Assembly: GCA_021803035.1 (NCBI GenBank)
Contig: JAJZME010000050.1
Coordinates: 1 to 64,000 of the forward strand
DNA from: Acidobacteriota bacterium
GTDB lineage: Bacteria; Acidobacteriota; Terriglobia; Terriglobales; Acidobacteriaceae
Direction: 5' to 3'
DNA: 64,000 nt
In this document: positions 46,822-51,329 of the stretch, one piece after another
Layout of the letters: the number at the start of each line of letters is the position of its first letter
Numbering within the stretch: the stretch's first letter is position 1
Program-made: the position numbers and the translations under genes
The notes under the pieces: generated by a model
What the model was told of the DNA's origin: nothing
Database searches by the model: none
What the model saw: only the letters and a program-made list of their open reading frames with translations

Positions 46822-47301
46822 TCAGTGTGAGCCGGCGCCACCCGCCCGGCCCATGCCCCTGTCCATCGCCTCATTTGCCAGCCGGTCGGCTTCGCGGTTG
46901 CCTTCGCGCAGCGTATGCCCAATCTCAAAGCCGGCCAGCCGCGCGGCACGGCGCCGTGCCTCTTCCCACAAGGGACGCAGGGCAGGGCTGGCCACCTTGT
47001 ACTGGCCCTTCATCTGCCGCACCATCAACTCGGAGTCGGAAACCACCCGCAGCCGCTTCGCTCCGTGTTCGCCGGCCCAGCCCAGCACCGCCAGCAAGCC
47101 GGAGTACTCCGCATAGTTATTCGTCCGGCGGCCAAGATACTCGCTCAGCCGCGCCACCACCCGGCCCTCCGGATCCGCGATAACCGCACCATAACCCGCC
47201 GGTCCCGGATTACCCCGCGAGCCGCCATCACAGTGCGCCGTAAACCAGCCGGCTTCCGGTTTGCCGCCTGCCGCATCCTTGTCAAACAGATTTCCGCTCA
47301 T
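46822..47301 (-). CDS. Ribonuclease H-like protein (RNase HI, RVT_3 type)
   Basis: RNase H fold of 159 residues. All four acidic residues are present: D25 (HCDGGSRGNPGPAG), E65 (NNYAEYSGL), D89 (VVSDSELMVRQMKGQYKV) and D139 (NREADRLAN). That supports cleavage of RNA in RNA-DNA hybrids. The sequence is nearer the RVT_3/YpeP-like subgroup than E. coli RnhA, because it lacks the basic handle. Both ends are polar, and the C-terminal tail is Gly-rich. Confidence 0.88.
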   Translation of the reverse strand: MSGNLFDKDAAGGKPEAGWFTAHCDGGSRGNPGPAGYGAVIADPEGRVVARLSEYLGRRTNNYAEYSGLLAVLGWAGEHGAKRLRVVSDSELMVRQMKGQYKVASPALRPLWEEARRRAARLAGFEIGHTLREGNREADRLANEAMDRGMGRAGGAGSH

Positions 47302-47664
47302 CGCCTCCTAAGTCTACAGGGAAAACCGGCCATTCTGTCCGGATTGATGCCCCCCCGCCCCGCCGATTCACGGTGATTCCTGCACTTTCCCGGCCCAATT
47401 TCCGCTTGCGGCTGCGGGCCGAAACGCCCCCGCATTGGTCCTTGTGACGCTCGTAATCCCTGCAACCGCACTCCGGCTTACCAATGCGCAATCGGCGCGT
47501 CTACTTCAATACAAACAGTACTCTACGGCGCGTTAGCCCTTACCGTGGGGTGGCTTTGGTGCGGAGTGGGTGGTCCCCGTTAAGTCCGGCAAAACCCACA
47601 AAAGTGGTCTAAGCATCAGTCGATCCGGTTCCAACGAACCGGAACGCCTCCAAACGGAGATGCG
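47302..47664. other. Spacer upstream of the sigma-factor operon
   Basis: A 363-bp gap, divergent between the RNase H gene and the sigma operon. It contains a hairpin, TCCGGTT/AACCGGA, with a six-base loop at 47624-47643, about 20 bases before the proposed start at 47665. I see no gene and no clear promoter consensus. Confidence 0.4.
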
Positions 47665-48423
47665 ATGGAAGCCGATGCGGTAACCTGCCCCATTTCGCCG
47701 GTCCAAACCTCGGGTACGGTGGTGTGGCCACCCGTTCGGAGGGTACAATCGTCCGTAGGCATGACGGCAACTACGGCAATGGGCGGAGCCAACCGGGATG
47801 GGGCGCACCGGGATGGCTCGGGCCGGGCGCATGAGCGTGTACAGGCGCACACGCCGGAGATGGACCTCATTCGCGAGGCCCAGGCCGGTTCCCGCTCGGC
47901 TTTTGATGCCTTGGTCCGCCAGTATGAACATCAGGTTTTGCGCCTCGCGCTGCACCTGACCGGCTCGGAGCACGACGCCGAGGACATATACCAGGAAGCC
48001 TTCCTCAAGGCCTACCGGTACATCGGTAATTTCCGCTTCGAGTGCTCGTTTTATACGTGGATCTACCGCATCGTCACCAACCTGTGTCTGGACCAGTTGC
48101 GGCGGCGCAAAACCAGACGCGAGGACCGGTCGGTACTCGTAGACCACTCCGGCGATGAGATCGACCTGCTCGCTACGGTGTCCGACGAGCGGTCATACTC
48201 CAACCCCGGCAAGGAACTGGACCGCAAGGTTCTGGCCGAGAAGATTCAAACGGCGCTGGGAAAGCTGACACCGCGGGAGCGAATGGTTTTTGAATTGAAG
48301 CACTATCAGGGCCTCCGCTTGCGCACCATTGGCGAACTGCTGAATACCACGGAAGAGACCGCCAAGAACACTCTCTTCCGGGCGACAAAGAAATTGAGAA
48401 CGCATTTGGCGGATTTGCGTTGA
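47665..48423 (+). CDS. RpoE-like ECF sigma factor
   Basis: Extracytoplasmic-function sigma factor of up to 252 residues. Region 2 starts near residue 79 (AFDALVRQYEHQVLRLALHLTGSEHDAEDIYQEAFLKAYRYI is the core; note DAEDIYQEAF). Region 4 is near 193-250, with LTPRERMVFELKHYQGLRLRTIGELL. The first 65 residues are outside the fold. Starts at 47665 (CGGAG six bases before) and 47761 are both possible. It is followed by its likely anti-sigma and a PDZ protein. Confidence 0.88.
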   Translation: MEADAVTCPISPVQTSGTVVWPPVRRVQSSVGMTATTAMGGANRDGAHRDGSGRAHERVQAHTPEMDLIREAQAGSRSAFDALVRQYEHQVLRLALHLTGSEHDAEDIYQEAFLKAYRYIGNFRFECSFYTWIYRIVTNLCLDQLRRRKTRREDRSVLVDHSGDEIDLLATVSDERSYSNPGKELDRKVLAEKIQTALGKLTPRERMVFELKHYQGLRLRTIGELLNTTEETAKNTLFRATKKLRTHLADLR

Positions 48424-48490
48424 GCACGCTGGCACGGAGCGGATTTTCATGCAGATTGTAGGGATTTCTTGAGGCTGGAAGGGCGTAGCG

Positions 48491-49492
48491 ATGAACTGCG
48501 AAGTGGCGCACGAACGAATAGTAACGGCGACATACGGTGAATTGCTCGACGAACACGCGCACGAACTGGAGCGGCACATGGCAGGCTGCCCGGACTGCGA
48601 AAACGAGCGCAAACAAATCACGGCGCTGAAAGTGCTGGCCAGCGCCTACCCGGTCATCGAACCCGGACCCAATCTGATCGCGCGTTCCAGACTACGGCTG
48701 GAGGAGGCGCTCGATGCCCTGCCGCCCATGCGCTGGTACGAGCGCATGGCCCAGCGCATGGTAAACAGCTTTGCCAGCCTGCGGGCCGCGCCGGCGGCCG
48801 TACTCCTGCTGCTGGTTGCCGGAGGCGGCATAGGCAGTCTCGCCGGCTATGAGTTCGCCCAGTACCAGTCTATTCACCAGACCTCGGCAGCCGCCGCTCA
48901 GCCCCAGACCGCCTCGGTGCGCGAAGAATCAAACCCCTCTGCTTCCGGGCTTGCGCACGTTAGTGAAGTGTCCAGCATCACCAGCATCCATCGCGTGCCC
49001 AACTCGCGGAAGATAGAGGTTCGCTACAGCCTGCTGGTGCCAGGCCGCGTCGAAGGCTCCTTTAACAACCCCGCCATTCGCCGCCTGGTCATGCTGGCTT
49101 CTGAAGATTCCGCCTCGGTGCATGTGCGCGACGACTCCGTTACGCTGATGGCCGATGAGTGCCGCACCGGCCACAATTGCCGGCCCTCCGGCATCCTGGA
49201 TGCGCTCATGGTCGCCCTGCTCTATGACAGCAATCCCCAGGTGCGCATGACCGCGCTGCACGGCCTCGAACCCTACGTGACACAGGATATGCGCGTGCGC
49301 GATGCCGTCCTTGAGGCGCTGCTCAACGACTCCAACCCCGCTATCCGCACCGAGGCCATCACCATCCTCGAGCCGGCCGAAGCCGATACCAGCGTCCGTC
49401 AGGTGCTTAGCGCGGTCGCCCGTTCCGACAATAATCCCCAAATTCGAATGGTTTCACGCGAGGTGTTGAGCCGGGCCCCACTGATTCAATGA
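48491..49492 (+). CDS. Membrane anti-sigma factor with HEAT-like repeats
   Basis: Single-pass membrane protein of 333 residues. The cytoplasmic N-terminus has a zf-HC2 anti-sigma finger: C3, H29, C33 and C36 (RHMAGCPDC). One helix spans about 98-118. The periplasmic part includes a beta region (NSRKIEVRYSLL) and then HEAT-like repeats from about 230 to 325 (YDSNPQVRMTALHGL, NDSNPAIRTEAITIL, SDNNPQIRMVSREVL). The repeats could bind a periplasmic partner or signal. SD GGAAGGG precedes the ATG. It is transcribed with the sigma gene. Confidence 0.85.
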   Translation: MNCEVAHERIVTATYGELLDEHAHELERHMAGCPDCENERKQITALKVLASAYPVIEPGPNLIARSRLRLEEALDALPPMRWYERMAQRMVNSFASLRAAPAAVLLLLVAGGGIGSLAGYEFAQYQSIHQTSAAAAQPQTASVREESNPSASGLAHVSEVSSITSIHRVPNSRKIEVRYSLLVPGRVEGSFNNPAIRRLVMLASEDSASVHVRDDSVTLMADECRTGHNCRPSGILDALMVALLYDSNPQVRMTALHGLEPYVTQDMRVRDAVLEALLNDSNPAIRTEAITILEPAEADTSVRQVLSAVARSDNNPQIRMVSREVLSRAPLIQ

Positions 49493-49565
49493 AAAAGACG
49501 CTCTGCCGGAAACGCGCCATCGTTCTAAAGAGCGCGGTCCCGGCAAGAAAAGACGGAGAAGCACC

Positions 49566-50531
49566 ATGAATTTCTTTTTGAGGCGATGCAAAGGTTTTTC
49601 TGGTACTCTTGGGGCCCTGATTGTTGTGGGCATGATGTTGATGCTGGTGCCACGCCCCTCAAGCGCCCAGATCGGCAACATTGTTCACATGCTGCACGTG
49701 CCGAATCCGCTAAAGCGCCCTGGCCCCAAGGTCTACCTGGGCGTGGATCTGGCCAATGTCGATGCGAAAGAAGCGCAGACCCTTAAGCTCCAGAAGGCCG
49801 GCGGTGTGGTGGTCACGGTTCTGGATCACGACGCGCCTGCGGCTCAAGCCGGAATTCACGTCCACGATGTCATCCTCACCCTGAATGACAAGAACGTGAA
49901 GAACGTAAACCAGTTCTGGCATATGCTGCATCAGTATCCGGTCGGCCGCAAAGTCCACATGGGAATCAGCCATAACGGCGACCTTCGCACATTGACCGTC
50001 GACCTGCTCAGCCGCCGCACCGTAGAGCGCGAAGCCTGGCAGCGCATCGGCAATGGCGGCGACATCTTTCCCTCCGCTCCCACCATGGGCATGTTTTCCG
50101 GTGCTGGAAATTCTCCCGTCACTAGCGGCTTTCATTTGCCTTTTTTCGGCAGCACCCTCAACGTGGGCGCTCTGGTTGAACCCCTGACCTCCCAGATGGC
50201 CGAGTACCTGGGCATCGCCAGCGGGCTGATGGTCAAGCAGGTAGCGCGCAAGAGCGAGGCCGCGCTGGCGGGCCTCCACGCCTTCGACGTGATCGTTAAA
50301 ATCGGTTCAGAGAAAGTGACCAACGTCGCCGCATGGAACCGTGCCCTGCGCGCCAACTGGGGCAAGCCCGTGCAGGTCACCATCCTTCGCAATCGCAAGC
50401 TCCAGGTCCTTACGCTTCAGGTCGCTTCAGAGCACTCCCAGCGCGGGATCCGCTTCGGCAACAGGCACCACGCGCCCAGGACCCCGGTCATGGCCAGCCT
50501 CAACCCCGCCGGTTCTCTGTTGACGCGCTGA
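49566..50531 (+). CDS. Periplasmic double-PDZ protein
   Basis: Exported protein of 321 residues. The signal peptide ends near A34 (RPSSAQ). PDZ1 lies at about 55-135 (YLGVDLANV, then GVVVTVLDHDAPAAQAGIHVHDVILTLND). PDZ2 lies at about 195-290 (GSTLNVGALVEPL, then LMVKQVARKSEAALAGLHAFDVIVKI). No trypsin-like or S2P protease domain is attached. It probably recognises C-termini of misfolded outer-membrane proteins or links the anti-sigma factor to a protease encoded elsewhere; this is inference from its place in the operon. Confidence 0.85.
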   Translation: MNFFLRRCKGFSGTLGALIVVGMMLMLVPRPSSAQIGNIVHMLHVPNPLKRPGPKVYLGVDLANVDAKEAQTLKLQKAGGVVVTVLDHDAPAAQAGIHVHDVILTLNDKNVKNVNQFWHMLHQYPVGRKVHMGISHNGDLRTLTVDLLSRRTVEREAWQRIGNGGDIFPSAPTMGMFSGAGNSPVTSGFHLPFFGSTLNVGALVEPLTSQMAEYLGIASGLMVKQVARKSEAALAGLHAFDVIVKIGSEKVTNVAAWNRALRANWGKPVQVTILRNRKLQVLTLQVASEHSQRGIRFGNRHHAPRTPVMASLNPAGSLLTR

Positions 50532-50591
50532 CCAGCCGCCAATCTGTGTGCGCGTCAGCCATCGCAGCTTGGCCGGCACCGGCAGCGCGCT

Positions 50592-51329
50592 TCACAGCGA
50601 TTGCACTGGCAGCAAAGTCAGGTCGTCCACCAGACCCACTTCCTTCTGCACAAAAGGCTCACCGTAACGCACCCCGGCGAGCAGCCCGTAGTGGCGCGCC
50701 TCGGCCAAAGTGCGTTCGCGTATCTCCTCTTCCGCGACGAAGAGACCGGCACCGGCGGATTGATTCGCATACTGGGAGCGATACGCCATCAGCGCCGCGT
50801 GGCGCTGCTCGATGTACGGCGTGATGTCCACCACAAAGCTGGGCCTCACGTCCGCGTAGAGACTGGCATAGACAATCTTGAAGGGCCGATGCGGAGGCAG
50901 ACCGGTCTCGATCTTTTCCAGGCCGGCAAGAAAACATGCGTCATAGCCGAGCGAGGCCACGATTGCGTGATCGGGATGACGGGCCTGCCCATAGGGCAGT
51001 ATCACCACCCTGGGACGCAGCATCCGCAGCACGCGTACGATCTTCACGCGATTTTCCAGTGTATTCTCGACGGCTCCGTCCGGCAGATCGAGCGCCTGGC
51101 GCCAGCCGGCGCCCAGAATGCGCGCTGCTTCCTCTGCCTCGCGTGCGCGCTCCTCGGCCGTACCGCGGGTTCCTGCTTCGCCTTGCGTCAGGTCGAGAAT
51201 GGCGGTGTGCAGACCGCGTGCGGCCATGCGCAGCAACGTGCCGCCGCAGGTCTGCTCCACGTCGTCCCGGTGCGCCGCGACGGCCAGAACATCGGCCGCC
51301 GGAGCATCGGGAGAGGACATGGCAGGCAT
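50592..51329 (-). CDS. bshB1: Bacillithiol biosynthesis deacetylase BshB1-type
   Basis: PIG-L/LmbE-family zinc deacetylase of 245 residues. The family step is removal of acetyl from GlcNAc-malate to give GlcN-malate. Zinc-site motifs are AHRDD (H20, D22, D23; the usual Pro is Arg) and HPDH. DLTQGEAGTRGTAEERAREAEEAARILG is the BshB1 signature. ATG at 51329 or 51320 is possible. It lies 12 bp downstream of a lipoprotein gene on the same strand. Confidence 0.87.
   Translation of the reverse strand: MPAMSSPDAPAADVLAVAAHRDDVEQTCGGTLLRMAARGLHTAILDLTQGEAGTRGTAEERAREAEEAARILGAGWRQALDLPDGAVENTLENRVKIVRVLRMLRPRVVILPYGQARHPDHAIVASLGYDACFLAGLEKIETGLPPHRPFKIVYASLYADVRPSFVVDITPYIEQRHAALMAYRSQYANQSAGAGLFVAEEEIRERTLAEARHYGLLAGVRYGEPFVQKEVGLVDDLTLLPVQSL

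Follow-up and report, generated by a model that had tools for sequence, protein, structure and literature searches.

How a soil-dwelling member of the Acidobacteriaceae (phylum Acidobacteriota) might keep watch over its envelope is the question raised by three adjacent genes in a 64,000-nucleotide stretch of contig JAJZME010000050.1 (assembly GCA_021803035.1; hereafter the window). Acidobacteria are among the commonest soil bacteria, and to our knowledge little is known of envelope surveillance in them. At 47665-50531, the window holds three co-directional open reading frames (ORFs) on the plus strand, which encode, from 5' to 3', an extracytoplasmic function (ECF) sigma factor, a membrane anti-sigma factor, and an exported double-PDZ protein:

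47665..48423, plus strand: ECF sigma factor, 252 aa from the ATG at 47665 (Pfam, NCBIfam, genus conservation)
48491..49492, plus strand: membrane anti-sigma factor, 333 aa (Pfam, AlphaFold2 model, hydropathy, invariant residues)
48785..48853, plus strand: predicted transmembrane (TM) helix of the anti-sigma factor, residues about 99-121 (hydropathy, charge rule)
49070..49474, plus strand: HEAT/ARM repeat domain of the anti-sigma factor, residues 194-328 (HEAT_2 in 69 of 69 sequences, model, structural matches)
49566..50531, plus strand: exported double-PDZ protein, 321 aa, without a protease domain (Pfam, AlphaFold model)
about 49731-50003, plus strand: first PDZ domain (model)
about 50166-50420, plus strand: second PDZ domain (model)

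An earlier note on this DNA had taken these genes for an RpoE-like sigma factor and its partners, and possibly for an undescribed variant of envelope-stress signalling. Our own reading, to which we give an even chance as a whole, is that of an autoregulated envelope-signalling ECF operon in which a HEAT domain would act as sensor or scaffold and a protease-free PDZ protein as its regulatory partner. The computed part of this scheme is supported, namely the domains, the topology by the charge rule, the conservation of the operon, the promoter motif, a second conserved site, and the presence of RseP and HtrA genes.

The anti-sigma factor combines a zinc-type domain with helical repeats. HEAT_2 matched with 39.6 bits (cut-off 27.7) over residues 237-326 only, and zf-HC2 marginally, with 22.4 bits against a cut-off of 22.2; across 69 aligned anti-sigma sequences, HEAT_2 was found in all and zf-HC2 in 60 (E up to 0.01). 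These 69 were drawn from 106 loci by leaving out close copies and rows that were short, fused, or N-containing (L071, L073, L126, L129, and L138-L143). The zinc-type residues C3, H29, C33, and C36 were invariant in 12 of 12 diverse sequences, and among the 69, His29 was invariant and the motif cysteines were conserved in at least 90%; the protein has the N-terminal Hx3Cx2C motif plus upstream cysteine that marks zinc-type class I anti-sigma factors. The RseA models in Pfam gave no match to it at E values up to 0.1. Its top 19-residue hydropathy windows begin at residues 99 and 100, with four lysines or arginines in residues 75-100 and one in 120-145, so that by the charge rule the N-terminus is predicted to lie inside and the C-terminal part outside.

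The AlphaFold2 model, made with the 69 sequences, had a mean predicted local distance difference test score (pLDDT) of 88.4 and a predicted template modelling score (pTM) of 0.58. Residues 136-150, just outside the membrane, were disordered (pLDDT under 50); beyond them lay three strands (162-168, 174-180, and 185-190) and four helix pairs (194-206/210-225, 235-245/249-262, 267-279/283-292, and 300-312/316-328), with an extra short helix at 230-233 and a five-residue tail after the last pair. Ten-residue blocks in the strand and helix-pair region had mean pLDDT values of 92-98. The listed structural matches were mostly HEAT/ARM and designed helical-repeat proteins, with VIA-align Z values of 12-15 (14.7 for a designed helical repeat, 14.3 for Pds5B, 13.8 for condensin, and 13.1 for importin alpha), a score that is high for helical repeats in general, reflects a common arrangement, and is silent on function; Foldseek against the PDB returned nothing below E 0.001 (best 1.1e-3). 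Tandem antiparallel helix pairs and a HEAT profile together place the domain among HEAT/ARM repeats, and judging from the model we consider the four predicted hairpins on the outer part of the protein real. The HEAT-like repeats that the earlier note had read in the periplasmic part of a membrane anti-sigma factor were thus borne out by both profile and structure prediction.

The note's account of the third product, as exported and carrying two PDZ domains but lacking a protease, also proved accurate. PDZ_2 matched with 75.1 bits in two stretches, no protease family was found by Pfam, the model shows no further domain, and the trypsin-like domain that stands ahead of the PDZ domains in an HtrA protease is absent. 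Two confident folds were modelled (about residues 56-146 and 201-285; most blocks with pLDDT >90), separated by a disordered linker and flanked by disordered termini; their nearest folds were DegQ and DegP, with the RseP PDZ tandem lower in the list. All 46 PDZ sequences scanned matched PDZ_2, and 41 had an N-terminal hydrophobic segment. Gly59 and Gly201 are invariant, and by motif we take them to lie in putative carboxylate-binding loops. Within the genus, identity of the PDZ protein was 40-67%, far below that of the sigma factor (84-96% to other genus loci).

The first gene encodes an ECF sigma factor by content, having only sigma-70 regions 2 and 4 (Sigma70_r2, 72.3 bits; Sigma70_r4_2, 48.3 bits). 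Among the NCBIfam matches listed (25 of 115 families), the superfamily model TIGR02937 came top with 118.8 bits, and the protein fell under every equivalog and subfamily cut-off, including those of RpoE (103.6 bits against 236.15) and SigW (107.3 bits against 243.1). With these two cut-offs unreached and no RseA match, the operon at most works like the E. coli pathway; of the "RpoE-like" label, the ECF assignment stood and an RpoE identity was not supported. The ATG at 47665 sits in an ATGG column conserved in at least 95% of the 36 rows of the genus alignment, a MATDA-like N-terminal extension was read in most of these loci, and the roughly 65 codons ahead of the sigma domain are partly conserved in the genus. 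Later in-frame starts occur at 47761 and 47860.

The three-gene arrangement is conserved. A search of 60 relatives found a full-length anti-sigma homologue in 34 of 35 same-genus genomes, the exception (G024, 73% complete) giving a short N-terminal match only. Thirteen relatives are metagenome-assembled Acidobacteriaceae or Acidobacteria (NCBI lineage Acidobacteriota, Terriglobia, Terriglobales), several with isolate names referring to bog, fen, or palsa. The PDZ gene adjoins the anti-sigma gene in all 36 genus loci (own genome included, G023 counted twice), and the sigma gene does so in 35, the sigma-less locus (L015) lying at a contig end; the PDZ match is split over two frames in L011 and crosses one stop each in G005 and G021. 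The gene association on which the earlier note built therefore holds in all genus loci viewed. In G023, two copies of the sigma/anti-sigma/PDZ operon (L076 and L032) lie on different contigs; with 4% contamination in this draft assembly, they may come from a mixture of two strains.

In a phylum sample of 297 genomes, 179 matched the anti-sigma profile (E up to 1e-8), many over the zinc domain only, and at least 54 matched over at least 240 of its 311 positions; among the matches listed, 30 of the 31 genomes of the window's family had a long anti-sigma match, and that of the remaining one was split. We viewed 72 phylum loci, 70 of them (from 67 genomes; one, L084, of the window's genus) as long or partial anti-sigma matches and two (L074 and L075) for a PDZ match only. 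All 70 contain the anti-sigma match, and 69 have a sigma match in front of it (L140 is a contig end). A further gene, encoding a Toastrack (DUF4097) protein, appeared here: 20 loci have Toastrack and PDZ genes, 23 PDZ only, 26 Toastrack only, and one (L065, a contig end) neither. In the Toastrack-only group, L112 and L122 break off before a PDZ gene could show, and the matches in several distant loci are weak or split. Where both genes are present in other lineages, the Toastrack gene sits between the anti-sigma and PDZ genes, an arrangement that, like the conserved promoter described below, goes beyond the earlier note. The assignment is based on PF13349 matches in 22 of 31 proteins (E up to 0.01) and a repeated TxGGxI pattern in the consensus; two of the first five proteins examined reach the curated PF13349 cut-off, and L064, the first member assigned, had no Pfam match. 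An N-terminal hydrophobic segment, read as an export signal, was found in 24 of the 31.

On a midpoint-rooted tree of 69 anti-sigma rows, made with a quick method and weak at many forks (no state for L065, L112, and L122, which are contig ends), three changes explain all states: the PDZ gene was gained or lost once and the Toastrack gene lost twice, one of these losses being in the window's clade. Toastrack occurs to either side of the root as drawn, which suggests that it is ancestral and that the window's operon is a reduced form. A Toastrack orthologue elsewhere in the own genome (3.86 Mb, 83 contigs) was considered and rejected: of two matches (94 and 80 bits), neither beside the operon, one is by eye Toastrack-like and exported and the other a LiaF-like membrane protein (L241, TM plus Toastrack, G000:C50), and loss rather than a move is likely in this clade. 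The own genome also has a second zinc-type anti-sigma-like match (G000:C50:53758), about 18 kb from L241 on the same contig. Separately, the anti-sigma homologue in L073 (G048) seems to lack the zinc-binding N-terminal part and retains the TM helix and HEAT repeats; it adjoins a sigma, Toastrack, and PDZ set.

Evidence on the regulation of the operon comes from a bipartite motif, GCTYAC-N16-CGTCYA, conserved before the sigma gene:

47476..47503, plus strand: predicted ECF-type promoter, with -35 GCTTAC at 47476-47481, a 16-nt spacer, and -10 CGTCTA at 47498-47503 (motif match)

ECF sigma factors commonly use a -10 box of the CGTC type. The pattern GMTYAC-N16-CGTCY matches only once in the window (0.18 expected), which alone proves little because 17 of 100 shuffles also have a match. 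We therefore rely on the comparison across loci, for which G[ACT]T[ACT]AC-N16-CGTC[CT] was scanned within 450 bp of the sigma domain and expectations were taken from shuffles. In the genus, 25 of 36 loci had the pattern, against 0.06 expected; the figures were 7 of 28 (0.04) for the family's other genera, 13 of 38 (0.08) beyond the family, and 45 of 102 (about 0.16) overall. Two of the 104 loci with a sigma match were excluded because their start was incomplete or their upstream sequence too short. The expectations are optimistic because the pattern and spacing were chosen on the same loci. Among the 25 genus sites, pairwise identity was 87% and 93% in the boxes and 37% in the spacer, and such a fixed 16-nt spacing around an unconserved sequence is hard to explain other than as a promoter. 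At least two of the 11 pattern-less genus loci (L016 and L020) have GCTCAC-N16-AGTCTA, and L022 has the boxes at 17 nt. A conserved ECF-type promoter before the sigma gene points to autoregulation of the operon, as predicted from this motif.

A candidate for a second target was also found. One match in the own genome lies 58 bp before the gene for an exported 344-aa protein, which scores 35.9 bits against TIGR03302 (BamD), below the 81.4 cut-off, and has no Pfam match at E up to 0.01. Twelve matches in G015, G011, G031, and G004 included two before this weakly BamD-like gene and two before the sigma gene. An orthologue search of 36 genomes found the gene in 18 of the 22 that belong to the genus (own genome included), with the site before it in 15 of 18 loci (14 of 17 without the own copy; L180 has a looser form and two have none); the boxes are 91% and 100% identical and the spacer 47%. 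A family-wide search matched 38 of 41 genomes; of 30 loci from it, two had the site, both in the window's genus. The site being absent outside it, this target is supported in the genus only. Four of the 15 sites (L175, L181, L184, and L185) seem, by eye, clear of the end of an ilvA-like upstream gene; at the others, conservation of the -35 box is not independent evidence, because the box is also coding. The gene for a GWxTD protein was rejected as a conserved third target. Its pattern site in G004 is not kept in the genus: among 15 genus loci with upstream sequence (L204, the sixteenth, has none), GCTYAC-N16-CGTC occurs in G004's own only, L212 having GATAAC at the same place, L206 a looser form nearby, and L211 a variant elsewhere; in family f2 the site was found in none of 8.

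Proteases that could act on the anti-sigma factor are encoded outside the operon: a single RseP was found in the own genome (287 bits; cut-off 147.55), together with three ORFs that, by eye, are of HtrA type and carry PDZ domains. Sigma binding, the PDZ ligand, proteolysis, and the stress signal are the steps that we infer. By family and gene adjacency, the anti-sigma factor probably binds and inhibits the sigma factor, its zinc-type N-terminal domain holding the latter at the inner membrane. The HEAT/ARM domain, in the periplasm, would serve as a sensor or docking scaffold. The double-PDZ protein would be a soluble partner in the same compartment: it would capture peptides with free C-termini, which would most likely come from envelope proteins that are damaged or mislocalised, and signal this either to the HEAT domain or to a protease. 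Removal of the anti-sigma factor would most likely begin with an HtrA-type cut at site 1 and be completed by RseP at site 2. Once free, the sigma factor would transcribe its own operon and, in this genus, the gene for the exported protein with weak BamD similarity. The seemingly ancestral form of the operon would have a second exported partner, the Toastrack beta-helix, which the window's clade does without. A division of PDZ sensing and proteolysis between different proteins, as the earlier note suggested, is likewise only what we infer. An envelope-stress role fits the exported partners, the HtrA-type PDZ domains, the weakly BamD-like second site, and the presence of RseP and HtrA genes.

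How the exported parts might touch can be approached through their C-termini. The last anti-sigma residue is Q in all 36 distinct genus sequences; among 25 others of the family, 16 end in Q, 7 in D, and 1 in E, and the remaining one, L129, holds a run of N. The seven that end in D are the family loci with Toastrack. Binding of the PDZ protein to the anti-sigma C-terminus is thereby suggested as a lead, against which it weighs that Q and D are unusual as PDZ ligand ends, that other lineages differ, and that the Toastrack loss there is one event on the tree. PDZ proteins themselves end in V, I, L, F, or M in 43 of 76 distinct cases, against 3 of 45 Toastrack proteins, and such tails could allow self-binding; the sequences counted are related and not independent, and the window's PDZ protein ends in R.

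Several results count against the proposed scheme. HtrA-type PDZ domains usually take a hydrophobic C-terminal end, and the family's anti-sigma proteins end in Q, D, or E. Many loci have no promoter pattern: 11 of 36 in the genus, 21 of 28 in the family's other genera, and 25 of 38 beyond the family. The pattern is not enriched in the own genome (13 matches against 13 for a reversed control, a count that alone shows nothing) or in G015, G011, G031, and G004 (12 against 38), and no exact match lies near the RseP or HtrA genes of the own genome. The site before the weakly BamD-like gene was not found outside the genus (0 of 28 loci for the family's other genera, 0 of 12 for family f2). Finally, 26 of the 70 phylum loci (L112 and L122, which end too early, among them) show no PDZ gene beside the anti-sigma gene, so the PDZ protein is dispensable for the core system.

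This last count would also suit an arrangement in which the PDZ protein is an output rather than a regulator, as a periplasmic chaperone or HtrA cofactor, while the HEAT domain senses alone or with other proteins; its place as last gene of the conserved set behind the promoter motif and its low identity in the genus relative to the sigma factor agree with this. However, the gene adjoins the anti-sigma gene in every genus locus, and on its side of the tree it was never lost again despite two Toastrack losses (the state of L112 being unclear), and we regard an output role as a serious but minority possibility. Activation might also proceed without proteolysis, if binding of a ligand or exported partner by the HEAT domain were relayed by the membrane helix to the zinc domain and so freed the sigma factor. 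HEAT/ARM domains are binding scaffolds, many of the structural matches are peptide- or protein-binding repeats, and the zinc-type domain is conserved; yet RseP and HtrA genes are present, the disordered residues 136-150 would suit a site-1 cut, and proteolysis is what releases RseA, likewise an anti-sigma factor with one TM helix, according to the relevant passages of PMC8103513; we judge this route unlikely. Very improbable, in our judgement, is an ordinary ECF/anti-sigma pair with a signal unrelated to envelope damage (e.g., a nutrient or metal) and exported neighbours that serve elsewhere: ECF systems do serve many signals, and the sole second target found is one genus-restricted gene, but the exported partners are kept over families and that second target is weakly BamD-like.

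Relative to these alternatives, we return to the autoregulated envelope-signalling operon as the working scheme. Its extension to the phylum is doubtful: the PDZ tandem and Toastrack might sense in trans by docking on the HEAT/ARM domain and gating destruction of the anti-sigma factor by a shared HtrA or RseP protease, the PDZ tandem having been recruited once from a protease into an older HEAT/Toastrack system from which Toastrack was then dropped twice. Lineages with PDZ only, Toastrack only, or both make it possible to compare the partners as carriers of the signal and to ask if PDZ sensing can work away from the protease. As a conserved unit, the operon offers a sigma factor with its brake, two exported proteins that may be sensors, and a promoter usable as a reporter.

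The operon is flanked on the minus strand by an RNase H-like gene on one side and a PIG-L deacetylase gene on the other. A consensus scan of 47300-50650 found neither a sigma-70 promoter nor a terminator. One further element lies inside the 5' end of the sigma ORF:

47744..47749, plus strand: TACAAT, genus-conserved, putative internal -10 element (genus alignment, per-locus positions)

It stands 11 nt before the ATG at 47761, the codons of which are also partly conserved, and five genus members have VK instead of VQ at this block. No site was listed here by the sigma-70 consensus scan. The TACAAT and the ATG at 47761 are a possible second promoter and start signal.

Compared with known systems, the operon resembles the E. 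coli RpoE/RseA/RseB pathway with DegS and RseP, as the relevant passages of PMC8103513 present it, in its ECF sigma factor, its one-TM anti-sigma factor with the C-terminal part in the periplasm, an operon gene for an exported co-regulator, and the involvement of HtrA/RseP-kind PDZ domains; RseP is also encoded in the own genome. In contrast to that pathway, the anti-sigma factor here has a zinc-type domain, HEAT repeats outside, and no RseA model match, the RpoE cut-off is unreached, the PDZ protein is protease-free and predicted to be soluble, and a Toastrack partner occurs in other lineages. The N-terminal Hx3Cx2C motif, in the form given in PMC7406223, is shared with zinc-type class I anti-sigma factors (zf-HC2/ASDI; ChrR and RsiW), whereas the HEAT/ARM outer domain sets the protein apart; in the main text of that source, as distinct from its domain figure, "heat" occurs twice and never for a domain. 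The lia/PSP partner systems with Toastrack (DUF4097) are similar in being membrane-stress type operons, some of them sigma-linked (PMC11237479, main text). Toastrack is thought there to be intracellular, whereas most Toastrack proteins of the acidobacterial operons have the putative export segment, and the window's operon has no Toastrack; the words anti-sigma, PDZ, and Acidobacteri- are absent from the main text of PMC11237479. HtrA, DegP, DegQ, and DegS provide the nearest sequences and folds for both PDZ domains, but the PDZ protein lacks their serine protease domain.

We know of no named ECF group with this set of partners, and a full-text literature search, which covered neither most subscription papers, nor the main ECF classification paper, nor figures, found no description of this operon. 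The operon to which the earlier note pointed is real and conserved, and its likeness to the E. coli pathway is at most functional. The operon is a variant within the known ECF/anti-sigma systems rather than a separate kind of system.

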